Below, in pieces: positions 17,382 to 63,845 of a stretch of DNA of 64,000 nucleotides. Location of the stretch: contig OZ025887.1 of the NCBI GenBank assembly GCA_964019415.1, positions 1,327,616 to 1,391,615 of the forward strand. The letters run 5' to 3'. Each line of letters starts with the position of its first letter. Within the stretch, counting starts at the first letter, position 1. The notes under the pieces are model-generated. The model worked only from the letters and a program-made list of their open reading frames with translations, had not been told where the DNA came from and searched no databases. A program made the position numbers and the translations under genes. This DNA comes from Ianthella basta. Its lineage: Eukaryota > Porifera > Demospongiae > Verongiida > Ianthellidae.

Positions 17382-17505
17382 ATACAGGATAAGGACAACG
17401 TAAAATCTCATCACATTATAATATTGCATACAGGATAAGGACAACGTAAAATCTTATCACGTGCACATGTAGTACAGGATAAGTATAGCTACGTTTTGCA
17501 ACTGT

Positions 17506-19839: not shown

Positions 19840-19985
19840 GGGGTCCACATATTTCAGGGTAGGTCCAAAGATTTCAGTCCAGCCATTTCTGAAATATTAG
19901 TTCTGGGGGTCCAAATATTTCGAAATATTGGGACCAGGGGTCCAAATATTTCGAAATATTTGGACTGCAGGGAACCTTTTCAGGG
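19840..19985. repeat. Tandem AAATATTTCGAAATATT palindromes
   Basis: Several GGTCCAAATATTTC-type units occur in a row, including a perfect 22-bp palindrome at 19942-19963 with arms CCAAATATTTC and GAAATATTTGG, and a near copy at 19913-19933. The block sits immediately before the truncated 5' end of a reverse-transcriptase element. It may be part of another element's end or of a target site. Confidence 0.55.
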
Positions 19986-19999
19986 GGTCCAATTTTTTC

Positions 20000-44340: not shown

Positions 44341-45426
44341 TCAAGCTCCTGGTGTGGCATTGGATGCCTCCACCACTGCCCAGCCAAGTTCTGGTCTCAG
44401 AGCAAAGGTTTTAGGGTCCTGCTTCACTGCCATGAACCCTCCAACAAACTGCATCTGGTACTGAGTGCTGTAGTACTGCCACACAAACGGTGCTCTTGAG
44501 AGGCCAGAGGGGAAACTGTCAGTGGTAGCACCACTGAATGGTCCTTCTGCCTCCCTTTCGATCCAAGGGTTACGTCCACGAGTCAAATATGGAAAGAGCT
44601 TCAAGATCCATCCACTAGAGTAGGGACCTCCAGAAGCATGCTTAAGTTTGTAAATGTCTGACCAAAATCTCTGGTCCACGTCTCCAGAGCTGGCAGCCAC
44701 AAATTGGTCCAAAACAGGTAGAAGGGTAGGAATCCACCACTCCAAGTCAAACTGTGCCAGTTGCTCTGCCTTTTCTCGTATCATGCGCCAATCATCAGGG
44801 GAGCCCTCCAGAGTAATCTCAGGGATACCACAACTAGTACAGACACTAAAGCGAAAATATGATTTCATTGCCTCCATGAGGACGATCTCGCTCACTGCCT
44901 TGCTCACAGGGTCAGTGGTGGAGAACTGTGGGAGGATGAGGTCATGTGTCTCAGCACCAATGTGGCCACGGATCTGAGCAGAGAAGTCACTAAACACCTC
45001 CTTCCATGGATTTTGCTGGCCTTTCACAAAGTCATCACGCCTTACCACTATTTCTTTCTTTCCCTCATGAGACACAAACTTGCTTCTGAGCTTCTCAGCG
45101 TTCTCGTTCACATGAATAGAGAGACCTTGCATAATGCACAGCCAGATCATGTCTGGACTCAGCACGAGAGGGTAATGACGGTCGAAAGCAGTGTGGACGG
45201 CTTTAACCAGGGCATTAACCTCACCAGTTGGACCGAAGAATACGACACTCCTCCCAGGATTCGGCCTGCCCTCATGAACCACTGGATCTGATTGGTTGTA
45301 GCACGATTCCACCTTGTACCCCAATCTGGAGTTAATGTGCTCCTTCATCGTTCCTGTCGGGAGGGCCTCCGTGGAGCGCTTAACCTTTGGGTCTACGGTG
45401 AACGTACAGGCTTTGGGTGCAGCCAT
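44341..45426 (-). CDS. DUF4419-family protein, paralogue 1
   Basis: A 361-aa single-exon ORF. The region LSPDMIWLCIMQGLSIHVNE (89-108), the LRSKFVSHEGKKE block, FSTTDPVSKAVSE (168-180), CGIPEITLEGSPDDW (199-213) and LRPELGWAVVEA are diagnostic of DUF4419, a eukaryotic family with no known activity. No signal peptide or membrane segment. Relative to the other copies it differs sharply at four short windows: 51-69 (HEGRPNPGRSVVFF), 192-198 (RFSVCTS), 261-264 and 316-322. The rest is nearly identical. The promoter element lies at 45528-45545. It is transcribed toward ADCK1. Confidence 0.85.
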   Translation of the reverse strand: MAAPKACTFTVDPKVKRSTEALPTGTMKEHINSRLGYKVESCYNQSDPVVHEGRPNPGRSVVFFGPTGEVNALVKAVHTAFDRHYPLVLSPDMIWLCIMQGLSIHVNENAEKLRSKFVSHEGKKEIVVRRDDFVKGQQNPWKEVFSDFSAQIRGHIGAETHDLILPQFSTTDPVSKAVSEIVLMEAMKSYFRFSVCTSCGIPEITLEGSPDDWRMIREKAEQLAQFDLEWWIPTLLPVLDQFVAASSGDVDQRFWSDIYKLKHASGGPYSSGWILKLFPYLTRGRNPWIEREAEGPFSGATTDSFPSGLSRAPFVWQYYSTQYQMQFVGGFMAVKQDPKTFALRPELGWAVVEASNATPGA

Positions 45427-45527
45427 TTTCGCTTCTTATCAAAGCACCTCTCTCGTTCGTCTCTACTCTACCTCGAAATGATCCAACCGAGAACTAGGTG
45501 ACTCAGCAGTACTGCAGTGCAAGGTTG

Positions 45528-45545
45528 ACTTCCGCTAAAATGGCT
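45528..45545 (-). promoter_or_regulatory. Conserved DUF4419 promoter element (paralogue 1)
   Basis: On the minus strand GCCATTTTAGCGGAAGTC combines a YY1-like GCCATTTT with an ETS-like GCGGAAGT, about 100 bp upstream of the ATG. The same arrangement precedes paralogues 2, 4, 6 and relic 7. Confidence 0.55.
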
Positions 45546-46439
45546 ACCATTACCGAAATTTTAGTCGTAGTTTAAAATTCAATTCCGTTCTCCGCGAAAT
45601 TTGGCCAACTGTAAATTTTGATATAGAGAATACTAGAGATTTGCTCCAAAAGTAGTAGTGATGCAGGGATGCCACGAACAGCGCAGACACAAGAGAAGGG
45701 ATGTTACACAGTACGGCATTTGCTGACTATGGGCCATATAGCTAGCGGTACAATCATGCAAGAGTGCCACTCCATAGACATGCAGTCCTACTACAGTTAG
45801 CTAATAATGTGGCAGCCGGGTGAACACCAATCCCCTAACAACATGCCTCCCAGTCCCTGAACTGCATGACATGGCGATTTTCTAGGCGAGCCACCCAGCG
45901 GTACAGATTTGTAGTAAAAAATGAGATTTTGTGCATTACATGATTATGCGTAGTAAAAATCGCAATCTTTGCTGCACTCCTGGCATGTGTACATGTGCTG
46001 CATAACACATAGGTAGCTCTCCATTTGTGGACAGCTGTTCTTCAACTAATATATTGCAGAGCACCATCATAGCTAGCTAGGTGGTTGCAAAGGTTTTGAA
46101 CTTTTGATATTGATCTTCAATCTGTGTACATGCACTAACCTGTGCTTACTGCACTTGCAAATTAGAAGCTAGTCCGTAGTGATGGATGTAACTATGGAGA
46201 TGTGTACACGCTGATACAAATGGAGTAAAATTGAAAGTACACATCAAATACAGCAAAGCACAAACAAACTATTGCCAAAACTAAAGCTGCATCCATGTAA
46301 AGGAGGTAGAGCACAGAACAATAAAGAGTATAAAACTACAAATAAGACTGTTGGATATAATGATACATTGAAACTACATTTAAAACAACACAAAATACTG
46401 ATCTGGATGATCGCTGTGATGAATGTAGTCTTGACACAC
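45546..46439. other. DUF4419 intergenic spacer
   Basis: Shared spacer type, containing GAAGGGATGTTA and GCCAAAACTAAAGCTGCAT blocks that recur between other copies. No ORF is supported. AATAAA-like words exist but none is distinctive. Confidence 0.5.
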
Positions 46440-47525
46440 TCAAGCTCCTGGTGTGGCATTGGATGCCTCCACCACTGCCCAGCCAAGCTCTGGTCTCAGA
46501 GCAAAGGTTTTAGGGTCCTGCTTCACTGCCATGAACCCTCCAACAAACTGCATCTGGTACTGAGTGCTGTAGTACTGCCACACAAACGGAGCTCTTGAGA
46601 GGCCAGAGGGGAAGCTGCCAGTGGTAGCACCACCGAATGGTCCTTCTGCCTCCCTTTCAATCCAAGGGTTACGTCCACGAGTCAAATATGGAAAGAGCTT
46701 CAAGATCCATCCATTGGAGTAGGGACCTCCGGAAGCATTGTTGATTTTGTAAATGTCTGACCAAAATCTCTGGTCCACGTCTCCAGAGCTGGCAGCCACA
46801 AATTGGTCCAAAATGGGCAGAAGGGAGGGAATCCACCACTCCAAGTCAAACTGTGTCAGCTGCTCTGCCTTCTCTCGTATCATGCGCCAATCATCAGGGG
46901 AGCCCTCCAGAGTAATCTCAGGGATGCCACACATTGTATGGCAGCCATACCTAAAATATGATTTCATTGCCTCCATGAGGACGATCTCGCTCACTGCCTT
47001 GCTCACAGGGTCAGTGGTGGAGAACTGTGGGAGGATGAGGTCATGTGTCTCAGCACCAATGTGACCACGGATCTGAGCGGAGAAGTCACTGAACACCTCC
47101 TGCCATGGATTTTGCTGGCCTTTCACAAAGTCATCACGCCTTACCACTATTTCTTCTTTGCCCTCGTGAGACACAAACTTGCTTCTGAGCTTCTCAGCGT
47201 TCTCGTTCACATGAATAGAGAGACCTTGCATAATGCACAGCCAGATCATGTCTGGACTCAGCACGAGAGGGTAGTGACAGGCGAACGCAGTGTGGACGGC
47301 CTTAACCAGGGCATTGATCTCACCAGTTGGACCGAAGAATCTGAAGCCTTCCTTAGGCGTTGGCCTACTCCTGTGAACCACTGGATCAGATTGGTTGTAG
47401 CACGCTTCCACCTCGTACCCCAATCTGGAGTTGATGTGCTCCTTCATCGTTCCTGTCGGGAGGGCCTCCGTGGAGCGCTTAACCTTTGGGAATACGGTGA
47501 ACGTAAAGGATTTGGATTCAGCCAT
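46440..47525 (-). CDS. DUF4419-family protein, paralogue 2
   Basis: A 361-aa ORF from ATG (MAESKSFTFTV). It has the same DUF4419 landmarks as paralogue 1. The variable loop at 192-198 reads RYGCHTM. The N-terminal variable segment reads HRSRPTPKEGFRFF and the 261 region INNA. The distribution of differences is clustered, not random. Start supported by alignment with paralogues 1, 6 and 9. Confidence 0.85.
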   Translation of the reverse strand: MAESKSFTFTVFPKVKRSTEALPTGTMKEHINSRLGYEVEACYNQSDPVVHRSRPTPKEGFRFFGPTGEINALVKAVHTAFACHYPLVLSPDMIWLCIMQGLSIHVNENAEKLRSKFVSHEGKEEIVVRRDDFVKGQQNPWQEVFSDFSAQIRGHIGAETHDLILPQFSTTDPVSKAVSEIVLMEAMKSYFRYGCHTMCGIPEITLEGSPDDWRMIREKAEQLTQFDLEWWIPSLLPILDQFVAASSGDVDQRFWSDIYKINNASGGPYSNGWILKLFPYLTRGRNPWIEREAEGPFGGATTGSFPSGLSRAPFVWQYYSTQYQMQFVGGFMAVKQDPKTFALRPELGWAVVEASNATPGA

Positions 47526-47616
47526 TTCAAGTGGTTATCAAAGCCTCTCTCTCGCGGAGTTCGTGCTTCTGTCTCGAGGTCCAGGGAGATTTACCGAGAT
47601 GAGTCAGAACCGGTTT

Positions 47617-47634
47617 CACATCCGCTAAAATGGC
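47617..47634 (-). promoter_or_regulatory. Conserved DUF4419 promoter element (paralogue 2)
   Basis: On the minus strand GCCATTTTAGCGGATGTG: same position and spacing as upstream of paralogue 1, with one substitution in the ETS-like half. Confidence 0.5.
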
Positions 47635-47764
47635 TTCTACAAGCAGAAATTTCGTAGTCAGGCGTCGCGTGACCCCTCCTCGCGGAAGGGTTAGGTTAAG
47701 TCTAATACATTGATTGTCCACGCGGAATGCAATTATGCTATGGAATGTAATTATTGCCCATCAA

Positions 47765-47960
47765 TCAACCAATCAATTATCATTATTAGAGTGCACCGCA
47801 CCAAAATGGTACACAGAAGGCCCAATGCAGCACTCAAACACAAGAATAGCTACAAAGGATAGTTCAACAGGAGAAAAAAGAACAGGTTGGGAACGTGGAC
47901 AAAAAGCATGTGCTTACACACCAAAGCGGGCACACCACATAGAGCTAAGATGCTTTAGAA
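47765..47960. repeat. Dispersed repeat, likely LINE 3' end (copy 1)
   Basis: Begins ATTATTAGAGTGCACCGCACC and includes GGACAAAAAGCATGTG and ACACACCAAAGCGGGCACAC. A second copy is at 63330-63520. The flanking AATCAATCAACCAATCA suggests the A/T-repeat tail of a minus-strand non-LTR element. Confidence 0.6.
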
Positions 47961-48241
47961 TCCTAGGATCTGTGCATGCTAGAGACAGTACAATGGCAGT
48001 CTGTTCACTATGACTCTGCTCTCAAGCTTTAAACCTGTCCCAATGGTTGGCTTCCTGGGGCGGATTGAGAAACTTCTATGACTGGTTTCCAACACATAAA
48101 GGTATAGCCATAAGGAAGCATAGACATTATAAGAGAAGAGGGTAGTGCAAATACTAGCCAGAGGTGATCTGACCAGTTTCTGGAAACCATGGAAACACCC
48201 CTGGATCCGCCCTTGGCTTCTGTCATCAAAGGCTGCCTGAG

Positions 48242-49262
48242 GTGGTCCCAGGCAGGGCACTGTATCAGCCCTCACATTCAAGGTTTTCTTTCATCATCCT
48301 CAGCTGTATGCTGATCCACTCATCACAGAAGAAAGTTGATGGTAACCTGGAGCTGTTTATTGATGGTCTTCCCATTGAACAGGTTCGAGTGATGAAGTTT
48401 CTTGGCGTGCTCCTAAATGACACCTTGACCTGGGGTGATCACATTGCCCACATCAGCACAAAGGTCTCTCGCAGTTTGAACTTACTTCGGCGTCTATCAT
48501 GGTTTCTTCCTAAAACCCTTCTTCTGCTTTACTTCAAGTCCTATGTCATTCCGACCTTTGAATATTGTGATGTCGTGTGGTCCAACTGTACCTCTTCTGA
48601 AGCTAAACGTCTTGATACTCTTTTCAATTATGGTTGTCGTCTTATCCTTCACAAGCCTCGCCTATACTCTGCCTCATCTGCCAGACAGGAGCTTCAATTT
48701 ACAACCTTAAGTGACAGAAGAAAGTTTCACATGTGTCAAACAATGTACAAGTGTTTGAACTCCCTGTCTCCTCCATACCTGACATGCCTTTTTGACACTC
48801 CATCAACCCACTACACACGTGCATCAACCACGAAGCATCTTAACCTCCCTGTAACTCGTTCCTCCTTTGGACAAAAAGCTTTCAGCTTTGCAGGTGCTTT
48901 GGCGTGGCGATCCCTACCTAGCCATGTTCGGGTGTCCAAAGACTTTTCTACTTTCTGCAAACTGTACAATTTGATGAGCTAATTTTTCTTTGTATAAACA
49001 TTTTGCATGAATTCCCTCACACATTTCTCTGCCTTTTCTGCATGTACCATACAATTATTGACTTTGCTCTTTTTAACCTAATATCTGACAAATGTTTCTA
49101 ACTCAACTCAAATCACAAATTTTTCCCACTTATGCATCTTTTTCATTTACCTCATCCCACCCCTTTTTCTCCTTTTATGTTGTGGGTGCCTTTGGAGTAG
49201 CCTGTGGCTAGTGGCTTTCCCACGTCAAATAAGATTACCTAACCTAACCTAACCTAACCTTT
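48242..49262 (+). pseudogene. 5'-truncated jockey/CR1-like LINE
   Basis: The frame 48305-48982 encodes the region just after the RT catalytic core: VRVMKFLGVLLNDTLTWGDHI, LLRRLSWFLPK, YFKSYVIPTFEYCDVVWSNC, ending FCKLYNLMS. This thumb and C-terminal sequence is typical of jockey/CR1/RTE-like LINEs. A ~280-bp 3' UTR ends in the pentamer tail (CCTAA)n at 49235-49260. The frame is open but everything 5' of the thumb is missing, so it is a dead but young copy. Confidence 0.75.
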
Positions 49263-49860
49263 GGTCTCTCCTCCAGTTCCGCATGCTCCTCGCCCTTCTC
49301 CATGCAGCACAAGACAACATAGCTCCAATCTCTGAATCAGTTAGGTTCGCAATTGCATCTCCTCCCACACTCTGACACTCAAAGTCACCCACGCACTTAG
49401 CCATGTTCATTATCCAGACCTCCTTGCTACACTCCACTGCCTGTCTTGCTATCTTCTTCAGTAACCTCCCCTCATACAACCTAGCTACTAGTCAACACCT
49501 TTAACCAGAATTTCACACAGTGCATGCATCTTTGCCTCACACAACAGGTAGTGAGTTGATTTCTAGCAATAAGGACACCTTGGGGTGAAGTGTGCCCACT
49601 CCAAAAAACATTCTGAGAGCATGCAGCTGGACTTGCTCGATGGATACCAAGTGCCTACTGCAGCCCCATATACCTCTGCTCCATACATCATGGTTGACTC
49701 CACTATAATTATAGAGATGCCATCAGCTTCCTGAAACTCCCAACTGTAACATCACCCATCTCTGCCCAACATCTCTGAAAACAAGCACCCAGAGCTCTTC
49801 TCCCTGCCTCTGCTTTGTCCTTCACCATCTCTTTCAGCCATTTAAAGGCGTATAATCACA
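49249..49860 (-). pseudogene. Decayed LINE C-terminus (second element)
   Basis: On the minus strand, 49855-49500 reads FKWLKEMVKDKAEAGRRALG and CFQRCWAEMGDVTVGSFRKL with frame breaks. It is followed at 49479-49249 by an open 76-codon frame (EGRLLKKIARQAVECSKEVW). These are C-terminal RT/knuckle-less segments of another non-LTR element. It lies tail to tail with the plus-strand LINE that ends at 49262. Confidence 0.5.
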
Positions 49861-50029
49861 CAGCTTGTGTACAATGTCATGCTGTGTACATGCAGTGTGA
49901 ACAATTACATGTATGACTGTGTAGCTACACAATGCACATGTTGTCCAATTTGGTGATTGTGACTGAGGGTTTGGAGATTGATCTGTGTGCATACTGCTTC
50001 CCCATCCATCTCATATGTCATATCACACC

Positions 50030-50396
50030 AAATGGGTAGAAGGGAGGGAATCCACCACTCCAAGTCAAACTGTGCCAGTTGTTCTGCCTTTTCTCGTATC
50101 ATGCGCCAATCTTCAGGGGAGCCCTCCAGAGTAATCTCAGGGATGCCACACATTGTATGGCAGCCATACCTAAAATATGATTTCATTGCCTCCATGAGGA
50201 CGATCTCGCTCACTGCCTTGCTCACAGGGTCAGTGGTGGAGAACTGTGGGAGGATGAGGTCATGTGTCTCAGCACCAATGTGGCCACGGATCTGAGCGGA
50301 GAAGCTACTAAACACCTCCTGCCATGGATTTTGCTGGCCTTTCACAAAGTCATCACGCCTTACCACTATTTCTTCATTCCCCTCGTGAGACACAAA
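50030..50396 (-). pseudogene. DUF4419 middle fragment (relic 3a)
   Basis: Only the central third of the gene remains, from FVSHEGNEEIVV to WWIPSLLPI, with loop RYGCHTM as in paralogue 2. Both ends stop abruptly in unrelated DNA. A small open frame extends into flanking sequence but has no start or downstream domain. Confidence 0.8.
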
Positions 50397-50670
50397 CATT
50401 TCCTAGGATCTGGGCACCACCCTAACCGGATCTCTGGATCCGCCACTGATTGGATACATGGTAAGTGGATTCCCTTTAAATATGTTATGATTTTAGCCAT
50501 GACCCGTAGTGTCTCAGCAATAGTGCATACAATGTCATTTCAAACTCCTATTGTGTAAAACATTTCACATGCAGCTACAATCTCAATTTGTATCTGTTAC
50601 ATGCAATTAACATTATTGTTGTTTTTCAATTATTTCTGTATCAATCTTTCAATTCAAGTACGTATATGCA

Positions 50671-50800
50671 ACACCCTTAGAAAGTGCTCTGGTAGCACAT
50701 TGAAGATGCTCTGGTAGCACATTGAAGGTGCTCCAATAGCACCTGAAAGTGCTCCATTAGCATCCTAAGGGTTCAGTGCATTACACCCCTTAGGGTGTAG
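50671..50800. repeat. 27-bp minisatellite framed by CCTTAG/CTAAGG
   Basis: Four units of GTGCTCTGGTAGCACATTGAAG-like sequence (each unit itself can form a GTGCT...AGCAC hairpin) between ACACCCTTAG at 50670 and CCTAAGGGTT at 50763. It is followed by the near-palindrome ACACCCCTTAGGGTGT at 50783-50798. Confidence 0.65.
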
Positions 50801-51061
50801 CCACTGGCTATTGGTGTGCACAAATGGGTACAAATGGAGTTTCTGTAGCCAAAATGGAACATTTACATCAGAAAATAGCAACACAGACAAAAGGATTTCT
50901 ACTAACCAATTGCCTAAACTAAAGCTGCATGTATATATGTGAGGTAGAACAATAAAGTGGGTAGCAAACACCAAATAAGGCTGTTGGTTATAATGATACA
51001 TTGAACCTATTCTAACACAAACTGCATGATCTTGCTGTGATAAATGTACACACACACTACC

Positions 51062-51413
51062 CAATACACTCAAGCTCCTGGTGTGGCATTGGATGCCTCC
51101 ACCACTGCCCAGCCAAGTTCTGGTCTCAGAGCAAAGGTCTTAGTGTCCTGCTTCACTGCCATGAACCCTCCAACAAACTGCATCTAGTACTGAGTGCTGT
51201 AGTACTCCCACACAAACGGAGCTCTTGAGAGGCCAGAGGGGATGCTGTCAGTGCATGGTAGCACCACTGAATGGTCCTTCTGCCTCCATTTCGATCCAAG
51301 GGTTCCATCCATCAGTCAAATATGGAAAGAGCTTCAAGATCCATCCACTGGAGTAAGGACCTCCGGAAGCATGCTTAAGTTTGTAAATGTCTGACCAAAA
51401 TCTCTGGTCCACT
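51062..51413 (-). pseudogene. DUF4419 C-terminal fragment (relic 3b)
   Basis: Carries the 3' third of the gene (from the QRFWSDIYKLKHASGG region to NATPGA), with a nonsense change at the Gln of YQMQF (TAG on the minus strand near 51186) and a small insertion near 51254 that breaks the frame. On the minus strand it lies upstream of relic 3a, the wrong order for one gene, so a rearrangement has occurred. Confidence 0.8.
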
Positions 51414-52195
51414 TTAATGTTCTGTACTATTATAATACCTCATTTACAAGCATGTATACAGCTTTAGTTTTGGCAATACAGAGTAGTAACCCTTTGGTTT
51501 GTGCTTTGCTGTTTTCTGATGTTAATGTTCCATTTTGGCTACTTTATATTGTTACATGCATGCATTTGTACCAGTTTGTGCACATCAAGTAGTTGCAGCC
51601 TTTAATACTACAACAGGTTCACAACTTGCCAGTGCAGTATGCACACAGAAGATCAATCTCCAAACCTTCAGTCACAATTACCAAATTGAATACAATTTCA
51701 AACATGTGTACACATGTTACATGTAATTCTTTATACCGTATATGCGCAGGTTGGAGGTATGTGCGTAACATATGCAGCATTTACATAATCTATCTGATTA
51801 TACACCACATGGCTAGGTAACTATAAGTATATAGCCAGTAAAGGTTCAGATAGTTGCAAAATCATCCCACTAATTAAAGTATATGGATAGCTGCCTACCA
51901 GTTATGCACCATATATGCCTGGGGTGTAGCGACGGATTGTGAATAATTATAATGTACGTAGTAGGACTAGCATTTGGTGCTGATATAGCTATATCCTTGC
52001 ACGTAGGGCCCATGCATGCATGGTTAATGCTCCATTGTGTAGCTAACATCCCTTCGTTGTGTCTGTAATGATTATGTGTGCGTCATCTGTGCACCATTGC
52101 TATATATTCGCAATTTAATCTTTAGTGTTCTCTAAACTAATAATCATGAACAGGCGGCCAAAAGTTGCGGAAAACGCCAAATGAAAATAAAATGG
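51414..52195. repeat. Inverted copy of a DUF4419 spacer
   Basis: This segment is the reverse complement of the cluster's normal upstream spacer. 51820-52190 matches 58840-59230 in inverse orientation (for example CACCATATATGCCTGGGGTG versus CACCCCAGGCATATATGGTG), and 51580-51730 matches 59280-59400. It abuts relic 3b on the left and the 3' flank of paralogue 4 on the right. The conserved ETS/YY1 promoter element is not included. Confidence 0.75.
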
Positions 52196-52482
52196 CCACT
52201 ACAAGATTGCAACTACTTGATGTGCACAAACTGGCTTAAATGGAGTAGCGAAAATGGAACATGCACATCGATCAGAAAACAGCAACACGGACAAATAAAA
52301 GGGTTCCTACTAGCTACAGATTGCCAAAACTGAAGCTGCATGCATGTAAATGAGGTAGCACAGTGTAGCAAACACCAAATAAGGCTGTTATAGTTATAAT
52401 GATACATTGAACCTATATTAAACAACACAAACTAATCTGGGTGTTCGCTGTGCTAAATGTACACACACACTACCCAATACAC

Positions 52483-53676
52483 TCAAGCTCCTGGTGTGGC
52501 ATTGGATGCCTCCACCACTGCCCAGCCAAGTTCTGGTCTCAGAGCAAAGGTTTTAGGGTCCTGCTTCACTGCCACGAACCCTCCAACAAACTGCATCTGG
52601 TACTGAGTGCTGTAGTACTCCCACACAAACGGAGCTCTTGAGAGGCCAGAGGGGAAACTGTCAGTGGTAGGTCCATCAAATGGTCCTTCTGACTCTCTTT
52701 CAATCCAAGGGTTACGTCCATGAGTCAAATATGGGAAGAGCTTCAAAATCCACCCACTGCAGAAAGGACCTCCAGAGGCACCATCGAGTTTGTAAATGTT
52801 TGACCAAAATCTTTGGTCCACGTCTCCAGAGCTGGCAGCCACAAATTGGTCCAAAACAGGTAGAAGGGAGGGAATCCACCATTCCAAGTCAAACTGCGCC
52901 AGTTGTTCTGCCTTCTCTCGTATCATGCGCCAATCTTCAGGGGAGCCCTCCAGAGTAATCTCAGGGATGCCACATGCTGTACGCACGAGAAATTCAAAAT
53001 ATGATTTCATTGCTTCCATGAGGACTATCTCGCTCACTGCCTTGCTCACAGGGTCAGTGGTGGAGAACTGTGGGACGATGAGGTCATGTGTCTCAGCACC
53101 AATGTGGCCACGGATCTGAGCAGAGAAGCTACTAAACACCTCATGCCATGGATTTTGCTGGCCCTTCACAAAGTCATCACGCCTTACCAGTAATTTTTTC
53201 TTCCCTTCGTGAGATACAAACTTGCTTCTGAGCTTTTCAGCGTTCTCGTTCACATGAATAGAGAGACCTTGCATAATGCACAGCCAGATCATGTCTGGAC
53301 TCAGCACGAGAGGGTAGTGATGGGCGAAGGCAGTGTGGACGGAATCGATCAGTGCGTTGATCTGTTTGGATGGGCTGAAGACGCTCTTCACCACTGGATC
53401 TGATTGGTTGTAGCACGCTTCCACCTTGTACCCCAATCTGGAATCAATGTATTCTTTCATCGTTCCCGTCGGGAGGGCCTCCGTGGAGCGCTCAACGTTT
53501 GGGTTCACGGTGAATGTAACTGCGTTGGGTGCAGCAGCAGCTCTCAACGGATCAAGTGAAAAGAAAGGACCACGCCCATAGAGTGCTACCCCTAACCCTG
53601 ACACTAGTAAGGCTAACCCAAATGTACGATAAGCAGCCCGGGAGAATGCATGGTCCGCTCTTTCCAATTCACCCAT
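52483..53676 (-). CDS. DUF4419-family protein with N-terminal membrane anchor, paralogue 4
   Basis: A 397-aa ORF from ATG (MGELERADHAF). It differs from the other paralogues by ~45 extra N-terminal residues containing a hydrophobic helix (TFGLALLVSGLGVALYG, about residues 18-34) before the shared TFTVNP...STEALPTGTMKE start, and by a shortened first variable segment (DPVVKSVFSPSKQINAL). Loop 2 reads EFLVRTA and loop 3 LDGA. The DUF4419 core is intact. The anchor suggests a membrane-bound version with the DUF4419 domain on the C-terminal side; topology is not determined. Its sister at 59665-60547 is degenerate. Confidence 0.83.
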   Translation of the reverse strand: MGELERADHAFSRAAYRTFGLALLVSGLGVALYGRGPFFSLDPLRAAAAPNAVTFTVNPNVERSTEALPTGTMKEYIDSRLGYKVEACYNQSDPVVKSVFSPSKQINALIDSVHTAFAHHYPLVLSPDMIWLCIMQGLSIHVNENAEKLRSKFVSHEGKKKLLVRRDDFVKGQQNPWHEVFSSFSAQIRGHIGAETHDLIVPQFSTTDPVSKAVSEIVLMEAMKSYFEFLVRTACGIPEITLEGSPEDWRMIREKAEQLAQFDLEWWIPSLLPVLDQFVAASSGDVDQRFWSNIYKLDGASGGPFCSGWILKLFPYLTHGRNPWIERESEGPFDGPTTDSFPSGLSRAPFVWEYYSTQYQMQFVGGFVAVKQDPKTFALRPELGWAVVEASNATPGA

Positions 53677-53755
53677 GTCCTTCTCTCGCCGAGTTAGAGA
53701 CTCTGTCTATCCCTGTCAAGAGCCTGTCTTGGATCTGCCACAAACGAACCAGGTT

Positions 53756-53774
53756 CACTTCTGCTAAAATGGCC
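53756..53774 (-). promoter_or_regulatory. Conserved DUF4419 promoter element (paralogue 4)
   Basis: Minus strand GGCCATTTTAGCAGAAGTG: YY1-like core kept, ETS-like half modified. It precedes the membrane-anchored gene by ~80 bp. Confidence 0.5.
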
Positions 53775-55063
53775 GCCACAAACTGATTTTCTATATTTGC
53801 GCAAATATTTGATTTATTTCGCGTTTACCCGTGAATTATTGGCCGCCTGTTTACGTTACTTTAACGAACAGTATAAAGATTGAGTACGAAAACAGTAGTC
53901 TCACAGGGATGGTAAAAACATTACAGATACAAGGTAGGCCTCTATTCGTAGCTACACAGTGAAGCATTAGCTACGTATGGACCATGCTAGCTATGACCAT
54001 GCCGATGCTCCAGCTTTCATGTGCATTTCTCCTTTTGTATCTGTACATGCTTGTTGCTCATCACATGCTCATGTTATCTACAGCAACGCATGCAGTGAGG
54101 TTAAACTGTTTCTCAGTCAGCCTGGTACTGGCCAGCTTTAGCTATTGCCATGCAGTGTATCCTATTTTCCATTAATGTTTGTATTGGAGAAGTGACTAAG
54201 TTGTTCCTCATTGACTATTCTTGTCGTTGGGATATCCTGCACACCAATATGTTAATCATGTATACATCCAGTAGCTAAATACCCCAGCATTTACCAGCCG
54301 GTTGCCATGGCAATAACCATTGGTACCAACTTACTGTACCAACCATTAACCAACTTATTGTTGCTTCTGTACTGCTATCAAAGTGAGTGCATAGTCTGGT
54401 CTAAACAGCTGTACTTTCAAGCATTACATGCCTAAATCCAATGATGTATACGCATTGGAAAAGGTGACCAATATAGCAGAGCCTCATTACATGTAGCTAC
54501 AGAACTTGAAAGTCAATGTAAACTGTTTCATTCACAATGTAACAGTTGGTCGATGAAGAGTACTTTCTATACTATGTGATTTAGCTGCTCAACAATTCCC
54601 TATTTCTAGTGACCAATTGGTCCCCATCCTAATGGACGTTTCCAGAGTATATCCGTGAATCATTAATCAGGGCAATCATGGGAATATCTGCGCGGACCGG
54701 TATATACTGCAGCATCAGCCATGTTACCATGGCAACGGCATAGCTAGGCTTATTCATACTATTGACACACATGCCCAGTCACACCTAGTCTAGCTCGCTA
54801 GACCTTCCCAGTAAAGACCTGCCAGGCACTTAGCTACTGGAATGGTGTAGCGAGCCAGGCTACTCACACTATAAACAGAACAAACATGCAAACAAACCAA
54901 TGGGTTACAACTATTGCCAAAACCAAACTCCACGCATGTATAGATCAGATGGTATGGGATAAAAAGGTGTAGCGAACAACAAGGCTGTTAGTCAAAATGA
55001 TACATTGAAAGTAGTAACCTATTACACTGCTCTGGCGCGAACATACTCTGATCCCCAATACAC
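53775..55063. other. Long intergenic spacer with X-box-like sites
   Basis: No ORF is supported. Two RFX-like palindromes are present: GTTGCCATGGCAAT at 54301-54314 and GTTACCATGGCAAC at 54723-54736. The right part resembles other DUF4419 3' flanks (AAGGCTGTTAGTC, ATGATACATTGAA). Confidence 0.5.
54723..54736. promoter_or_regulatory. Perfect X-box-like palindrome
   Basis: GTTACC-AT-GGCAAC meets the RFX consensus in both halves. There is no adjacent start codon, so any target gene is uncertain. Confidence 0.45.
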
Positions 55064-55945
55064 TCAAGCTCCTGGTGTGGCATTGGATGCCTCCACCACT
55101 GCCCAGCCAAGTTCTGGTCTCAGAGCAAAGGTTTTAGGGTCCTGCTTCACTGCCATGAACCCTCCAACAAACTGCATCTGGTACTGAGTGCTGTAGTACT
55201 CCCACACAAACCAGAGGGGCCACACAAGGCCAGAGGGGAAGCTGTCAGTGGTAGCACCACTGAATGGTCCTTCTGCCTCCATTTCGATCCAAGGGTTACG
55301 TCCATCAGTCAAATATGGAAAGAGCTTCAAGATCCATCCACTGGAGTAAGGACCTCCGGAAGCATGCTTAAGTTTGTAAATGTCTGACCAAAATCTCTGG
55401 TCCACGTCTCCAGAGCTGGCAGCCACAAATTGGTCCAAAACAGGTAGAAGGGAAGGAATCCACCACTCCAAGTCAAACTGTGCCAGCTGCTCTGCCTTCT
55501 CTCGTATCATGCGCCAATCTTCAGGGGAGTCTTCCCGAGTAATCTCAGGGATGCCACAACGCGTAACCAAGCGATACGCAAAATATGATTTCATTGCCTC
55601 CATGAGGACGATCTCGCTCACTGCCTTGCTCACAGGGTCAGTGGTGGAGAACTGTGGGAGGATGAGGTCATGTGTCTCAGCACCAATGTGGCCACGGATC
55701 TGAGCAGAGAAGCTACTAAACACCTCCTGCCATGGATTTTGCTGGCCTTTCACAAAGTCATCACGCCTTACCACTATTTCTTTCTTTCCCTCATGAGACA
55801 CAAACTTGCTTCTGAGCTTCTCAGCGTTCTCGTTCACATGAATAGAGAGACCTTGCATAATGCACAGCCAGATCATGTCTGGACTCAGCACGAGAGGGTA
55901 ATGACAGGCGAAGGCAGTGTGGATGGCCTTAACCAGGGCATGCAT
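55064..55945 (-). pseudogene. DUF4419 paralogue 5, 5'-truncated
   Basis: The open frame of 293 aa begins MHALVKAIHTAF, equivalent to residue ~72 of the full-length copies. Upstream sequence diverges at 55946 and lacks the first ~70 codons and the promoter element. The core is otherwise intact: loop 2 reads AYRLVTR, shared with paralogue 6. A short insertion changes SGLSRAPFVW to SGLVWPLWFVW. It may still be translated if another promoter is used, but is most likely a truncated pseudogene. Confidence 0.7.
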
Positions 55946-57557
55946 TGATCTGACCAGATGGGATGAGGTTAACTAGCTACAGGAGTCATTCCAAAATGTC
56001 CAAAACTCACCAGAGAGTGAGGGGTCATGTAGCTAGCTAGCTACTGTGCTGAAATCGTGTACACTGTGGGTGAAATCCACTGAAATCTTGAAATCTGAAA
56101 TATCCTAATTTTTGTGCACTGATATAAAAGTCACCATTTAAATCATGAGAAACTCTTAGCTAGTACACCGTGTAGTATCAACTTGCTCAACTTGTTTCTG
56201 CGTTCTCAAAGGCTGTGAAATGGCTGAGTAGTCCAGTTGACTCTTGAACATGCATGATACACTACAGAGTACATTTCTGTGATGTCATGGAGTTATAGCT
56301 TAAGCTATCTCTTAGTAATCTATAAGTGATCTACACTGTGAATATTCTTTTGATTAAACCACTACCATGGCCATCCCGTCCATGCCTGTTAGCTAGCTAG
56401 CTAAACTCCAGGATCATTTGTACAGTGAAACCTGTCTAAGACAGCCACCTATGAGTCAGCTCTAACTGACCTGTACGAAGAGGTGGCCTACTCAGTGACC
56501 ATCTTAGACAGGTTTCACTGTACAAAGTAATATAATATTATGATCATAGTTGTGCAATTAATGTAGAAACGGTAACTGCAACTGCTTTGAATCACAATCA
56601 TGTTCATGCATTATACCACATGCATGCTGAAATTTTGGAGAGTCAGCCAAAGATTTTGATTTCCCAAAAGGGAGTTGGAAAGAAAGTCATGCAAAGTGTA
56701 TACAGTTGCCAGGCAGCCTGCATGGTCTTCATAGTGGACCTGGCTGCACCACCAGATTGATGATGACAGCTAGCGTATTTGGCACAACAACAACAGAAAT
56801 AGAAACTATTAAGTATTCAAAGCATGTCTGTTAGTGTGTGTAACTTTGTTGTTACATGTTTTGATTACTACAAGTTTCTGTTTTTGCTGTTGATGTGTCT
56901 TTTGAATCATTCAGTGCTATATTGCTGTTGCTAATGTCACAAAACAGTCAATTTCAGAATGGTTGGCCAAAACGGCAAATGGTAGAGCAGCCAAATGGTG
57001 TGATGTCACTGTTAGTTTACTGCTTGCCATTATGTCACACCCATTGTCCTGTATTGTCTTTCCTTATGACGTCACACCATTTGCCATTTACCTCTAAATT
57101 TGTACAACTATTCTGAAATAGGCTGCATTACTTTACCTATTATATACATACTGTACAGATTATTGATCACCTCACATGATGCTAAAGAGTCTGTACCATG
57201 TAAGTTACGCGATATTATCATATGGTGCTAGTCCCCCACAGCCATGCAGCTACCCCATTGCAGGCAAAACATGCTGCAAACAGTAGTTTCCCGAGGCCTG
57301 ACCAGCTTTAATAGTTGCTTCCTGTGAGCCTGTGGTGTGGTGGTAATGCTATCAATTACAAGACATGACAAAAGGATTTCTACTAACAGATTGCCTAAAC
57401 TAAAGCTGTATGTATATGTATGAGGTAGAACAATAAAGTGTATAGCAAACACCAAATAAGGCTGTTGGTTATAATGATACATTGAACCTATTTAAACACA
57501 AACTGCATGATCTGGGTGTTTGCTGTGATAAATGTACACACACACTACCCAACACAC
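55946..57557. other. Intergenic with MITE and inverted repeats
   Basis: No gene seen. It contains a pogo-like MITE (56423-56520), an inverted repeat of CAAATGGTGTGATGTCAC and its complement (56990-57085), and, from about 57360, the usual DUF4419 3' flank. Confidence 0.5.
56423..56520. mobile_element. 98-bp pogo/Tigger-like MITE
   Basis: Ends are CAGTGAAACCTGTCTAAGA and its exact complement, flanked on both sides by TA. The CAGTGAAACC terminus and TA target site are characteristic of Tc1/mariner-pogo (Tigger) elements. Too short to code. Confidence 0.75.
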
Positions 57558-58649
57558 TCAAGCTCCTGGTGTGGCATTGGATGCCTCTACCACTGCCCAG
57601 CCAAGTTCTGGTCTCAGAGCAAAGGTTTTAGGGTCCTGCTTCACTGCCATGAACCCTCCAACAAACTGCATCTGGTACTCACTTTCGAAGTACTCCCACA
57701 CAAACGGAGCTCTTGAGAGGCCAGAGGGGAAGCTGTCAGTGGTAGCACCACTGAATGGTCCTTCTGCTTCCATTTCGATCCAAGGGTTACGTCCACGAGT
57801 CAAATATGGAAAGAGCTTCAAGATCCATCCACTGGAGTAGGGACCTCCGGAATCATCGTTGAGTTTGTAAATGTCTGACCAAAATCTCTGGTCTACGTCT
57901 CCAGAGCTGGCAGCCACAAATTGGTCCAAAATGGGTAGAAGGGAAGGAATCCACCACTCCAAGTCAAACTGTGCCAGTTGTTCTGCCTTCTCTCGTATCA
58001 TGCGCCAATCTTCAGGGGAGCCCTCCAGAGTAATCTCAGGGATGCCACAACGCGTAACCAAACGATACGCAAAATACGATTTCATTGCTTCCATGAGGAC
58101 GATCTCGCTCACTGCCTTGCTCACAGGGTCAGTGGTGGAGAACTGTGGGAGGATGAGGTCATGTGTCTCAGCACCAATGTGACCACGGATCTGAGCAGAG
58201 AAGCTACTAAACACCTCATGCCATGGATTTTGCTGGCCCTTCACAAAGTCATCACGCCTTACCACTATTTCTTCCTTCCCCTCGTGAGATATAAACTTGC
58301 TTCTGAGCTTCTCAGCGTTCTCGTTCACATGAATAGAGAGACCTTGCATAATGCACAGCCAGATCATGTCTGGACTCAGCACGAGAGGGTAGTGACGGTC
58401 GAAGGCAGTGTGGACGGCCTTAACCAGGGCATTCATCTCACCAGATGCAGATGGGACGAGGTATTCCAAACCCTTCTTAGGCGTTGGCCTACTCTTGTGC
58501 ACCACCGGATCTGATTGGTTGTAGCACGCTTCCACATTGTACCCCAATCTGGAGTTGATGTGCTCCTTCATCGTTCCTGTCGGGAGGGCCTCCTTGGAGC
58601 GCTTAACCTTTGGGTTCACGGTGAACGTACAGGCTTTGGAGGCAGCCAT
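57558..58649 (-). CDS. DUF4419-family protein, paralogue 6
   Basis: A 363-aa ORF from ATG (MAASKACTFTV). It has the longest first variable segment (HKSRPTPKKGLEYLVPSASGEM). Loop 2 reads AYRLVTR, loop 3 LNDD and loop 4 EYFESEY (QYYSTQY in other copies). The remaining protein matches the other paralogues closely. Shares loop 2 with truncated paralogue 5 but not loops 3 and 4, a mosaic pattern that suggests gene conversion. Confidence 0.85.
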   Translation of the reverse strand: MAASKACTFTVNPKVKRSKEALPTGTMKEHINSRLGYNVEACYNQSDPVVHKSRPTPKKGLEYLVPSASGEMNALVKAVHTAFDRHYPLVLSPDMIWLCIMQGLSIHVNENAEKLRSKFISHEGKEEIVVRRDDFVKGQQNPWHEVFSSFSAQIRGHIGAETHDLILPQFSTTDPVSKAVSEIVLMEAMKSYFAYRLVTRCGIPEITLEGSPEDWRMIREKAEQLAQFDLEWWIPSLLPILDQFVAASSGDVDQRFWSDIYKLNDDSGGPYSSGWILKLFPYLTRGRNPWIEMEAEGPFSGATTDSFPSGLSRAPFVWEYFESEYQMQFVGGFMAVKQDPKTFALRPELGWAVVEASNATPGA

Positions 58650-58775
58650 TTCAACTGGTTCTAGCTATCTAGCTAAGCTTCTCTCGCCGAGTTCGTGCTT
58701 CTGCCTCGAAATCCAGCGAGATCTGCTGAGTCAGGTAGAACTAAGGGGGTCGAGTATCTATGGTCAGTACCTTTT

Positions 58776-58793
58776 CACATCCGCTAAAATGGC
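58776..58793 (-). promoter_or_regulatory. Conserved DUF4419 promoter element (paralogue 6)
   Basis: Minus strand GCCATTTTAGCGGATGTG, ~130 bp upstream of the ATG, identical to the element before paralogue 2. Confidence 0.5.
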
Positions 58794-59664
58794 TACTACT
58801 AGATACAAGCAGAAAATTCGCGGTTGCCGCAAAAGTGGCCGTTTAAATTATTAAATTTCATTTGGCGTTTTCCGAAACTTTTGGCCGGCTGTTCATGATT
58901 ATTAGTTTAGAGAACACTAAAGATTGCGAATATATAGCAATGGTGCACAGATGACGCAAACATAATCATTACAGACACAACGAAGGGATGTTAGCTACAC
59001 AATGGAGCATTAACCATGCATGCATGGGCCCTACGTGCAAGGATATAGCTATATCAGCACCAAACGCTAGTCCTACTACGTACATTATAATTATTCACAA
59101 TCCGTCGCTACACCCCAGGCATATATGGTGCATAACTGGTAGGCAGCTATCCATATACTTTAATTAGTGGGATGATTTTGCAACTATCTGAACCTTTACT
59201 GGCTATATACTTATAGTTACCTAGCCATGTGGCGTAGAATCAGACAGATTATGTACATGCTACATATAGTATAAAGAATTACATGTAACATGATTGTGTA
59301 CACATTTTGGTAATTGTGACTGAGGGTTTGGAGATTGATCTTCTGTGTGCATACTGCACTGGCAAGCCTGTTATAGTATTGAAGGTTACGACTAGCTTTT
59401 TGATGTGCACAACCTGGCTTAAATGGAGTAGTGAAAATGGAACATGCACATCGATCAGAAAACAGCAACACGGACAAATAAAAGGGTTCTACTAGCTACA
59501 GATTGCCAAAACTGAAGCTGCATGCATGTAAATGAGGTAGCACAGTGTAGCAAACACCAAATAAGGCTGTTATAGTTATAATGATACATTGAACCTATAT
59601 TAAACAACACAAACTGATCTGGGTGTTTGCTGTGCTAAATGTATACACACACTACCCAACACAC
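58794..59664. other. DUF4419 intergenic spacer
   Basis: Direct-orientation version of the spacer found inverted at 51414-52195. The right part is nearly the same as 52205-52480 upstream of paralogue 4's stop. No ORF supported. Confidence 0.5.
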
Positions 59665-60547
59665 TCAAGCTCCTGGTGTGGCATTGGATGCCTCCACCAC
59701 TGCCCAGCCAAGTTCTGGTCTCAGAGCAAAGGCTTTAGAGTCCTGCTTCACTGCCATGAACCCTCCAACAAACTGCATCTGGTACTGAGTGCTGTAGTAC
59801 TCCCACACAAACGGAGCTCTTGAGAGGCCAGAGGGGACACTGTCAGTGGTAGGTCCATCAAATGGTCTTTCTGCCTCTCTTTCAATCCAAGGGCTCCATC
59901 CATGAGTCAAATATGGGAAGAGCTTCAAAATCCACCCACTGCAGAAAGGACCTCCAGAGGCACCATCGAGTTTGTAAATGTCTGACCATAATCTTTGGTC
60001 CATGTCTCCAGAGCTGGCAGCCACAAAGTGATCCAAAACACCAGAGTAATCTCAGGGATGCCACACATTGTATGGAAGCCATACCTAAAATACGATTTCA
60101 TTGCTTTCATGAGGACGATCTCACTCATGGCCTTGCTCACAGGGTCTGGATCTGAGCAGAGAAGTCACTAAACACCTCCTGCCATGAATTTTGCTGGCCT
60201 TTCACAAAGTCATCACGCCTTACCACTATTTCTACCTTCCCCTCGTGAGACACAAACTTACTTTTGAGCTTCTCAGCGTTCTTGTTCACATGAATAGAGA
60301 GACCTTGCATAATGCACAGCCAGATCATGTCTGGACTCAGCCCGAGAGGGTAATGACAGGCGAAGACAGTCAGTACATTGATCTGTTTGGATGGGCTGAA
60401 GACGCTATTCACCACTAGATCTGGATCAAGTGAAAAGAAAGGACCATGCCTATAGAATATCCTTAACCCTATCACTAGTAATGCTAAACATAATGTACCA
60501 TAACCAGTCAGGTAGAATGCATGGTCCATCCTTTCCAATTCACTCAT
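59665..60547 (-). pseudogene. DUF4419 relic 7 (sister of membrane-anchored paralogue 4)
   Basis: Starts MSELERMDHAF with a hydrophobic helix like paralogue 4, but has lost ~50 codons after the anchor and a stretch inside the core. It is split into three frames: 60547-60137, a middle piece near 60040-60140 (loop RYGFHTM), and 60036-59665. Deletions at about 60040 and 60147 account for the breaks. The C-terminal part is still open to NATPGA. Not functional as one protein. Confidence 0.85.
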
Positions 60548-61152
60548 CTCAAGTTATTATAGCCTTCTCTCGCTAAGTTAGAGATTCTGTCTATTCCTGT
60601 CAAGGGCCATCTTGGATCTGCACGAACCAGGTCACTTCTGCTAAAATGGATGCCATAAAACTTATTTTTAAATATTTGCTCAAATATAAAATTCCAGTAA
60701 ATTATTGTCCGCCTGCTTACGATAACTTAGCCTATAGATGTAGAGAACAGCAAAGATTATGTACAAAATCAGTAGTCGTGCTGGGATGGCAAAATTAGTA
60801 CAGATACAAAGTAGAGTTCTATTTGTAGCTACACAGTGGAACATTAGCTAGACTGTTCTGGCTAACACCTACCAGACACTTACTGGGACGTCTAGTGAGC
60901 CAGACTAACTCACACTATAAACAGAACAAACAAACAAACCAATGGGTTACTACTAATGCTAAAACTAAAACTGCATGCATGTAAATGAGGTGGTATGGGA
61001 CAAAAAGGTGTAGTGAACAACAAGGCTGTTGGTTAATTTAAAAGTGATACATTAGTAACCTATACACATTACATTGCTCTGGCATGAACAAACACTCTGA
61101 TCCCCTAACACATGGGGATCAGAGTTGTAAATGTGTTGTGTATGGTGTGAAA
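60548..61152. other. Upstream region of relic 7 and spacer
   Basis: A degraded promoter element (CTTCTGCTAAAATGG) is at 60634-60650. The rest resembles the spacer before paralogue 5 (ATGGGTTAC, GTGTAGTGAACAACAAGG). No gene seen. Confidence 0.5.
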
Positions 61153-61355
61153 TGGTTTGGCATTGGATGCCTCCACCACTGCCCAGCTAAGTTCTGATCT
61201 CAGAGCAAAGATTTTAGGGTCCTGCTTCACTGCCATGAACCCTCCAACAAACTGCACTTAGTACTCCTAACTACTCAGTTTCAAAATACTGCCACACAAG
61301 CAGAGCTCCATCTTGAGAGGCCAGAGGGTAAGCTGTCAGTGGTAGCACCACTGAA
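61153..61355 (-). pseudogene. DUF4419 C-terminal fragment (relic 8)
   Basis: About 200 bp of the gene's 3' end with several indels and stops. It reads from the GGATTDS region to GWAVVEASNAK. The oldest-looking copy in the cluster. Confidence 0.75.
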
Positions 61356-61867
61356 TTTATGATCGATCTATCCAAGTATTCCATACAGGATTTTTCAACT
61401 ATATATCTGAACATTTTCTAACATACTAGCTAGCCTATTGAAGGCTTATAATCACATGCACAGCTCTCGTACATGCTGTGTATGGTGTGCACGAACAATT
61501 CTGTAACTGTGTACACATTTCTAAAGCCTATCCACTTTGGTGATTGTGGGGGGTTGCATGGAGATTGATCTTCTGCATGTGTTCATACTGCAATTGCAAT
61601 TTGGAGCCTACTAGCTAACAACTCCATATAATTGAGTATCCATGGTCGTAACTACTGGGCATGCACAAACTGGTACAGATGGAGCAGTACAGAAGATGTG
61701 GATCAAAACAGTAACACAAACACACCAGCTGCATGCATGTGAAGGAGGTAGACAAATAAGGCTGTTGGATATAATGATGCATTTGACCAACATTAAAGCG
61801 ACACAAAATGCTGATCTGGATGTTTGCTGTATATAATAAACATGCATCCATACACAACCCGGCACAC
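61356..61867. other. Spacer between relic 8 and paralogue 9
   Basis: AT-rich. Contains GGAGATTGATCTTCTG and AAGGCTGTTGGATATAATGATGC blocks typical of the cluster's flanks. No gene. Confidence 0.5.
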
Positions 61868-62953
61868 TCAAGCTCCTGGTATGGCATTGGATGCCTCCAC
61901 CACTGCCCAGCCAAGTTCTGGTCTCAGAGCAAAGGTTTTAGGGTCCTGCTTCACTGCCATGAACCCTCCAACAAACTGCATCTGGTACTGAGTGCTGTAG
62001 TACTGCCACACAAACGGTGCTCTTGAGAGGCCAGAGGGGAAGCTGTCAGTGGTAGCACCACTGAATGGTCCTTCTGCCTCCCTTTCGATCCAAGGGTTCC
62101 GTCCATCAGTCAAATATGGAAAGAGCTTCAAGATCCATCCACTGGAGTAGGGACCTCCAGAATCATCGTTGAGTTTGTAAATGTCTGACCAAAATCTCTG
62201 GTCCACGTCTCCAGAGCTGGCAGCCACAAATTGGTCCAAAATGGGCAGAAGGGAGGGAATCCACCACTCCAAGTCAAACTGTGTCAGCTGCTCTGCCTTC
62301 TCTCGTATCATGCGCCAATCTTCAGGGGAGCCCTCCAGAGTAATCTCAGGGATGCCACACATTGTATACACACCAAAGTGAAAATATGATTTCATTGCTT
62401 CCATGAGGACGATCTCGCTCACTGCCTTGCTCACAGGGTCAGTGGTGGAGAACTGTGGGAGGATGAGGTCATGTGTCTCAGCACCAATGTGGCCACGGAT
62501 CTGAGCAGAGAAGTCACTGAACACCTCCTGCCATGGATTTTGCTGGCCTTTCACAAAGTCATCACGCCTTACCACTATCTCTTCCTTCCCCTCGTGAGAC
62601 ACAAACTTGCTTCTAAGCTTCTCAGCGTTCTCGTTCACATGAATAGAGAGACCTTGCATAATGCACAGCCAGATCATGTCTGGACTCAGCACGAGAGGGT
62701 AGTGACGGTCGAAGGCAGTGTGGACGGCCTTAACCAGGGCATTGATCTCACCAGTTGGACAGAAGAATACGAGGCCTTCCTTAGGCGTTGGCCTACTCCT
62801 GTGAACCACCGGATCTGATTGGTTGTAGCACGCTTCCACATTGTACCCCAATCTGGAGTTGATATGCTCCTTCATCGTTCCCGTCGGGAGGGCCTCCGTG
62901 GAGCGCTTAACCTTTGGGTCTACGGTGAACGTAAAGGCTTTGGGTGCAGCCAT
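61868..62953 (-). CDS. DUF4419-family protein, paralogue 9
   Basis: A 361-aa ORF from the ATG at 62953 (MAAPKAFTFTV), chosen because it matches the start of paralogues 1, 2 and 6. The frame stays open upstream only from a GTG and would overlap the divergent acid phosphatase exon. Loop 1 HRSRPTPKEGLVFF, loop 2 HFGVYTM, loop 3 LNDD, loop 4 QYYSTQY. Ends NAIPGA rather than NATPGA. It lacks the ETS/YY1 element of its siblings because its promoter is shared with the phosphatase gene. Confidence 0.85.
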   Translation of the reverse strand: MAAPKAFTFTVDPKVKRSTEALPTGTMKEHINSRLGYNVEACYNQSDPVVHRSRPTPKEGLVFFCPTGEINALVKAVHTAFDRHYPLVLSPDMIWLCIMQGLSIHVNENAEKLRSKFVSHEGKEEIVVRRDDFVKGQQNPWQEVFSDFSAQIRGHIGAETHDLILPQFSTTDPVSKAVSEIVLMEAMKSYFHFGVYTMCGIPEITLEGSPEDWRMIREKAEQLTQFDLEWWIPSLLPILDQFVAASSGDVDQRFWSDIYKLNDDSGGPYSSGWILKLFPYLTDGRNPWIEREAEGPFSGATTDSFPSGLSRAPFVWQYYSTQYQMQFVGGFMAVKQDPKTFALRPELGWAVVEASNAIPGA

Positions 62954-62984
62954 TTTTGCATATGAAGCACGTGACTGGAAGATG
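62954..62984. promoter_or_regulatory. 28-bp divergent promoter core with E-box
   Basis: Between the two opposing ATGs lies GAAGCACGTGACTGG, with a CACGTGAC E-box at 62969-62976, a core resembling the TFEB/USF (CLEAR-type) motif found in lysosomal gene promoters. An AAGATGGCGG YY1-type motif overlaps the phosphatase ATG. Function is inferred. Confidence 0.5.

Positions 62985-63769: not shown

Positions 63770-63845
<76 letters not shown>

Follow-up and report, generated by a model that had tools for sequence, protein, structure and literature searches.

A hypervariable seven-residue segment in a tandem DUF4419 gene cluster of the sponge Ianthella basta

A role of LRR surfaces in pathogen recognition is established for plant NLR proteins. 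NLR families such as RPP8 are reported to consist of duplicates that exchange sequence among themselves and are extremely diverse (PMC6771003), the DBLMSP and DBLMSP2 genes of Plasmodium falciparum have deep domain lineages in common through non-allelic gene conversion (PMC10919680), and the Sp185/333 genes of the purple sea urchin, for which duplication and proposed conversion are held to underlie diversity, are reported to be upregulated on immune challenge and have flanks that in all six genes are alike and microsatellite-bounded (PMC3091723). Here we analyze a tandem cluster of DUF4419 (PF14388) genes in the sponge Ianthella basta. The window, i.e. the whole stretch of DNA studied, is 64 kb long (C20:1327616-1391615) and comes from one genome of 209 Mb in 96 contigs. 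Transfers of DUF4419 involving bacteria, an amoeba and giant viruses are described in PMC7125106, the one paper that a full-text literature search for the family name returned; a search for PF14388 returned none, and the Pfam entry states no function.

The cluster holds DUF4419 copies on the minus strand only, i.e. five intact genes (d1, d2, d4, d6 and d9), one 5'-truncated copy (d5) and four relic pieces (rA to rD). The PF14388 profile matches all six open reading frames (ORFs) at 256-280 bits (cut-off 25; E 5.6e-76 or better), and the match together with conserved H86, D94, C201 and D214 ties them to DUF4419, whereas bacterial members of the family differ in that the segment described below is not exceptional among pairs. 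As in Sp185/333, these are tightly clustered invertebrate genes of less than 2 kb; the likeness is one of clustering and diversity, and we claim no homology. The flanks set the two systems apart, as here alignments of the 3' flank reach 0.83-0.98 for d2, d4, d6, d9, rB and rC, with two pairs of d9 at 0.81-0.84 and d1 aligning only weakly. The only tandem repeat scoring at least 150 within 44-64 kb is (AC)n at 63745-63842, shorter arrays falling below this threshold. DBLMSP/DBLMSP2 show two lineages over a domain in population data, whereas here five classes over seven codons are found in one genome; RPP8 shares duplicates with exchange and extreme diversity but its proteins are different ones. 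Evolution of this kind has been seen in other families, while the DUF4419 scaffold and the focus on what may be a single strand appear to be new.

A variable segment in front of an invariant cysteine

Exploring the codon alignment, we found that columns 194-200, directly before CGIPEIT, read RFSVCTS in d1, RYGCHTM in d2, EFLVRTA in d4, AYRLVTR in d5 and d6, and HFGVYTM in d9, whereas columns 191-193 and 201-204 are invariant at the protein level in all six. These are exactly the strings given in a preliminary description of this DNA, and their divergence is beyond chance: the segment is the most divergent seven-codon interval of the alignment, and the observed maximum was reached by none of 10000 column shuffles. 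Within its 21 nt, 50% of sites differ between copies, compared with ~4% in the median interval, nonsynonymous divergence (pN) is 0.50 against 0.032 in the rest, and the segment ranks first of 260 seven-residue intervals in the cluster. The edges are sharp and all three codon positions are involved, with differences at positions 1, 2 and 3 of 0.51, 0.51 and 0.48 in the segment and 0.05, 0.03 and 0.095 in the rest. Divergence of the segment is 0.50 within the cluster and 0.57 to c8, the closest DUF4419 gene outside it, which lies on another chromosome; the corresponding medians over 270 intervals are 0.041 and 0.127. The numbers of distinct residues from 194 to 200 are 5-2-5-3-5-1-5 by our own count over d1, d2, d4, d5, d6, d9 and c8. 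Residue 195 is aromatic, 197 mostly aliphatic and 199 threonine, while the odd places of the segment (194, 196, 198 and 200) are changeable; by our own arithmetic, four equal maxima would fill the odd places in 1 of 35 orders by chance.

The next most variable sites are 51-72 (pN 0.32), 263-266 (pN 0.30) and 320-325 (pN 0.17, mostly through d6 alone), the last with sites 322-325 changed in d6 only and a Q/E difference at site 320. A further variable pair, residues 84-85, adjoins the conserved H86. Of three additional variable windows proposed earlier, 51-69 and 261-264 were borne out, while 316-322 proved weaker and largely a matter of d6.

To compare segment classes, we used the eight copies of the cluster in which the segment is present (28 pairs). 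Four pairs differ at no more than 1/21 sites, none at 2-6/21 and 24 at 7/21 or more, and the distance in the segment is uncorrelated with that in the flanks (rho 0.05). Copies of the same class differ about as little in the segment as in its flanks (d5/d6, 1/21 with flanks at 0.044; d2/rC, 1/21 with flanks at 0.067), and identical or nearly identical classes occur on different backgrounds.

As a control we collected bacterial relatives, comprising the best 80 loci of 100 confirmed, together with four viral loci and three annotated records. After dropping two fragments (L081 and L087) and including second copies from six loci, the family alignment comprised 91 sequences with an effective number of 48. 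Among these bacterial and viral sequences there is no variation at C201, D94 or D214 and hardly any at H86 and T172, and H86, D94, T172, C201, G202, P204, D214 and W215 are all present in the six cluster ORFs. Family-wide entropy lies at the 94th percentile for site 196 and the 98th for 198, between 58 and 78 for 194, 197, 199 and 200, and at 11 for 195. The ratio of divergence in the segment to that in the rest is 10.9 in the cluster; in bacteria it is 1.06-1.35 across the seven distance bands above 0.1, and the segment ranks 97th and 70th of 260. In a tree from this sample, which is without other eukaryotes, the cluster falls together with three Planctomycetes sequences (support 0.865), from which we draw no conclusion on a horizontal origin.

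Rates of change and exchange between copies

Site models with constant synonymous rate (dS) reject neutrality, with 2dlnL (twice the log-likelihood difference) of 60.6 and 63.3, and name sites 194, 197, 198, 200 and 285, with weaker signals at 61, 62 and 70. These tests overstate selection in the segment because dS itself is raised there: a model with separate rates gave a 6.8-fold synonymous (p=0.001) and an 11.8-fold nonsynonymous increase. Taking as scaffold the 325 codons that belong to none of the four variable intervals, and freeing both rates, we obtained for the segment a nonsynonymous rate of 14.7 times the scaffold synonymous rate in six copies (13.8 in the five intact ones) and a synonymous rate of 7.5 times (7.3). 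With both rates far above the scaffold synonymous rate, the segment is thus old, fast-evolving or both, and this holds for each of the three codon positions. Omega (dN/dS) is 1.96 in the segment and 0.34 in the rest for six copies (0.30 in the rest for the five intact), and across models local dN/dS is 1.7-2.0 in the segment and 0.3-0.5 elsewhere, in agreement with the earlier claim of focal change, the scaffold being under purifying selection; dN/dS no higher in the segment than elsewhere, named there as refuting, was not what we found. That description was silent on synonymous sites, at which change in the segment is raised as well. A second tree in the dual-rate model was discarded (lnL on the rest of -2941.5 versus -2631.8).

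Evidence of exchange comes from relic rC. Its 3' flank is identical to that of d4 at 195 of 199 sites, and overall it carries the d4 state at 43 of 73 sites that distinguish d4 from d2, whereas over codons 85-200 it does so at only 6 of 32; no permutation of 300 matched this pattern, with or without the segment. rC is therefore a d4/d2 chimera, and its d4-type ends with a d2-class segment, together with the discrete segment classes, argue for exchange and against hypermutation. Over codons 161-200 relic rA has the same sequence as d2, and over codons 201-240 it comes closest to d6 (7/300 permutations), but without the segment this is not significant (199/300). Altogether nine parent pairs were tested, six of them at no more than 7/300. 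The pairwise homoplasy index (PHI) was reached in 2 of 5000 permutations at k=1 and 20 at k=3, and Sawyer's test on all polymorphic sites gave 0/5000, a value inflated by the variable loops. An account by old, non-recombining divergence only, which had been named as refuting, is contradicted by the rC chimera and by the occurrence of classes across backgrounds.

Flanking sequences indicate how far homogenization extends. d1 and d9 align at 94% from 6 nt before the ATG to 5 nt past the stop codon and not beyond, and the 3' flank of d1 scores only weakly above shuffled sequence. The 3' flanks align at ~0.8-0.98 among d2, d4, d5, d6, d9, rB and rC, the pair d5/d9 scoring close to shuffled sequence, and the 5' flanks align at 0.83-0.91 among d1, d2 and d6. 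Homogenization of the coding part is thus clear for some pairs and not for all, since the flanks of other pairs align too.

A proposed specificity segment and its alternatives

We read the segment classes as old and discrete, kept distinct by selection on a scaffold partly homogenized by conversion. On balance we favor, with moderate confidence, the view that the tandem DUF4419 copies thereby form a small repertoire of specificities. The segment would be a beta strand, x-[FY]-x-[VLC]-x-T-x, leading into C201-G202-I203-P204, in which residues 194, 196, 198 and 200 would point toward a ligand or partner and so determine specificity, while 195, 197 and 199 would point into the core. That a single face of the strand, which ends at the invariant cysteine, is variable is suggested by the five different residues at each odd place compared with two, three and one at the even places. 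Such a strand may line a pocket or a partner surface, and a role in setting specificity is suggested by the segment running into the C201 motif and by the variable pair 84-85 preceding H86. The copies would then represent a small set of specificities on a common scaffold; gene conversion would now and then carry a segment class from copy to copy and keep the scaffold alike, and selection for difference would preserve the classes. We would guess, with considerable doubt, at a microbial or viral partner and a role in innate recognition or neutralization; of such guesses, an innate role suits the pattern best. Slightly more doubtful still is the proposal that DUF4419, a family found also in bacteria, phages, amoebae and giant viruses, serves in this animal as a germline-encoded repertoire for recognition, its proteins being intracellular or anchored in a membrane and the strand by the invariant cysteine being a cassette shuffled by conversion. 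If true, a recognition-type gene family would have arisen on a scaffold without known function, with the exact residues named; this would give a first handle on binding by DUF4419, and swapping the seven-residue cassette would make a clean specificity experiment.

Several results weigh against a selected repertoire. The site model names 197, an even place, and does not name 196 at 0.9, so that the alternation fits untidily. With local dS free, omega of the segment is 1.74 and over seven codons not separable from 1 (p=0.31), the four odd positions have an omega of 3.9 (p=0.12 versus 1), and synonymous change is raised ~7-fold. Diversifying selection as first proposed is thus upheld in that local omega exceeds that of the rest, but not in the sense of an omega above 1. 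That five intact copies hold five classes has a chance of 6/56 given the classes among the eight copies, and is suggestive at most. As for exchange, without the segment only two rC pairs and rB, the latter over the replaced stretch of d5, keep mosaic support, PHI weakens to 305/5000 at k=5 and 591/5000 at k=10, and Sawyer's test at silent sites is not significant (799/5000). Gene conversion as previously suggested therefore stands on the rC chimera and on PHI at k=1 and 3; silent sites and PHI at the larger k do not bear it out, and homogenization concerns some pairs only. Finally, the two closest bacterial distance bands, of nine pairs each, have ratios of 1.8 (the lower band) and 2.9 (0.05-0.10, nearest the cluster's distance), and there may be some local excess in bacteria too. 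Given the ratio of 10.9 in the cluster versus these values and the 1.06-1.35 of the other bands, the strong acceleration of the segment is a feature of this cluster.

The raised synonymous sites (6.8-fold, p=0.001) and a divergence nearly as deep as that to c8 are what neutral survival would leave behind, i.e. a segment that diverged early, whose mismatches halt conversion tracts and which escapes homogenization without selection. We consider this unlikely, as exchange did cross the segment in the d4/d2 chimera rC, like classes sit on different backgrounds, and residue 195 is still aromatic and 199 still threonine while the odd places change. Short conversion tracts from divergent DUF4419 donors, with little later selection, would account for differences that span the whole segment in many bases, synonymous ones included. 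A family search of the genome gave 15 DUF4419 matches, and among the four genes outside the cluster (c8, c10, c6 and c13) only c8 is close, its segment differing at 10-14/21 sites from all eight copies; segmental replacement is therefore rather improbable, for a donor search by family-level matches in one genome, beyond the reach of which lie lost, allelic and very short donors. The nearly equal variation of the three codon positions and the sharp edges would also fit a mutation hotspot or targeted hypermutation of the 21 nt. However, codons 195 and 198 do not vary at their third base, and the segment distances fall into two groups without any pair at 2-6/21, same-class copies being at most 1/21 apart and about as close as their flanks, which a hotspot fits badly and discrete old classes fit well; we regard a hotspot as very improbable. 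Relaxed constraint on a tolerant strand, to which the variation of several of these columns across the family might point, is the least credible account: with the nonsynonymous rate freed, equality of both rates with the scaffold synonymous rate is rejected (p 6e-25 for six copies, 4e-19 for five intact), the nonsynonymous rate being far in excess, and in bacterial pairs the segment is unexceptional, as its ranks show.

The same evolutionary mechanism could also serve a non-immune role, either enzyme specificity or self/mate recognition, which overlaps with the proposed repertoire and which we regard as possible but doubtful. The conserved set H86, D94, T172, C201 and D214 could be a candidate active site, and both the segment, adjoining C201, and the variable pair adjoining H86 would be suitably placed. 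The paralogue c13, however, lacks CGIP, and hence not every member would be such an enzyme, and the family profile matched no solved structure up to E 5.

As for a diversity-generating retroelement, no template repeat of the variable region was found nearby: a search with d6 and its flanks, confined to the 64 kb, gave only DUF4419 copies and matches to the d6 flanks.

Layout of the cluster, bacterial relatives and neighboring sequences

In the order of the forward strand, the cluster begins with the intact genes d1 (44341..45426; segment at 44833-44853) and d2 (46440..47525; segment at 46932-46952). They are followed by rA (50031..50399), a relic of codons ~117-238 with the d2-class segment RYGCHTM at 50151-50171, and by rB (50879..51412), a relic 3' end of codons ~250-361 including 3' flank, which on the coding strand comes before rA, to its 5' side. 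Intact d4 (52483..53676; segment at 52975-52995) has an N-terminal extension with a hydrophobic stretch, shared with relic rC, while the other intact copies begin with MAA or MAE. The truncated d5 (55064..55945; segment at 55559-55579) has lost ~70 N-terminal residues, has aspartate at the family-invariant G210 and carries a replaced stretch, 3 nt longer, at codons 312-316; in view of these three defects it is probably defunct. Then come intact d6 (57558..58649; segment at 58050-58070), the chimeric relic rC (59480..60547) with d4-like ends and the d2-class segment RYGFHTM at 60066-60086, and rD (61153..61356), a short relic of a 3' end. The last copy, intact d9 (61868..62953; segment at 62360-62380), starts at an ATG at 62953, its listed ORF reaching from a GTG to 63088 (61868-63088). 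All lie on the minus strand, and the spacers are CTAG-rich. The nine loci counted earlier hold as to strand, five intact genes and one truncated copy, but the relics bring the total to ten pieces, and the relic described as split is rA and rB, which are not simply a split gene since they lie in reversed order.

An inverted repeat (51770-52191 and 58851-59267; 345 nt at 98% and 75 nt at 95%) places sequence from upstream of d6 in opposite orientation beside relic rB, which points to an inversion or an inverted duplication at this place in the past. Between DUF4419 copies, the ORF at 48242-48982, which we take to be retroelement-like, had no Pfam match.

In bacteria, adjoining pairs of DUF4419 genes with different segments occur at six Bacteroidales loci (L042, L046, L048, L054, L055 and L078). 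No protein family recurred in more than 3 of 65 neighboring proteins scanned (of 113 listed; products of 100-900 residues from 34 of 37 loci, three being without a gene). Of ten long DUF4419 proteins chosen, serpin domains are present in two and carboxypeptidase-regulatory-like domains in three, of which one has a serpin as well; RHS is matched by one protein and SUKH, with a score under its cut-off, by one in L031. Nine further ones gave weak zinc-ribbon matches in one only, and the fusions in these 19 proteins point to no consistent function. The anti-phage library gave no family in five proteins and the PHROG library none in three. The DUF4419-serpin fusions lie at 5734-8328 of L050 and 3087-6119 of L051, both from gut Prevotellaceae.

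Elsewhere in the stretch, positions 463-18423 hold an array of AIG1-type GTPase genes, in which an ORF of 305 aa is present in three copies of 100% identity, with a second AIG1 ORF next to it. The units measure 8556 and 8487 bp, with 1000 of 1000 bases alike in each stretch compared, and more copies lie just beyond the 64 kb; the array is either a very recent tandem duplication or an assembly artifact. As a hint of immunity these neighbors were discounted: with 119 AIG1 matches on many contigs of the genome, their adjacency lends no support to an innate role. Reverse-transcriptase ORFs lie at 19960-21867 (just below the cut-off) and 23424-25115. In the genome at large, Wnt gave 34 matches, compared with none in 14 control genomes (prokaryotes by name), and Wnt-like matches cluster at G000:C16:1991483-2026924, apparently through a local Wnt expansion.

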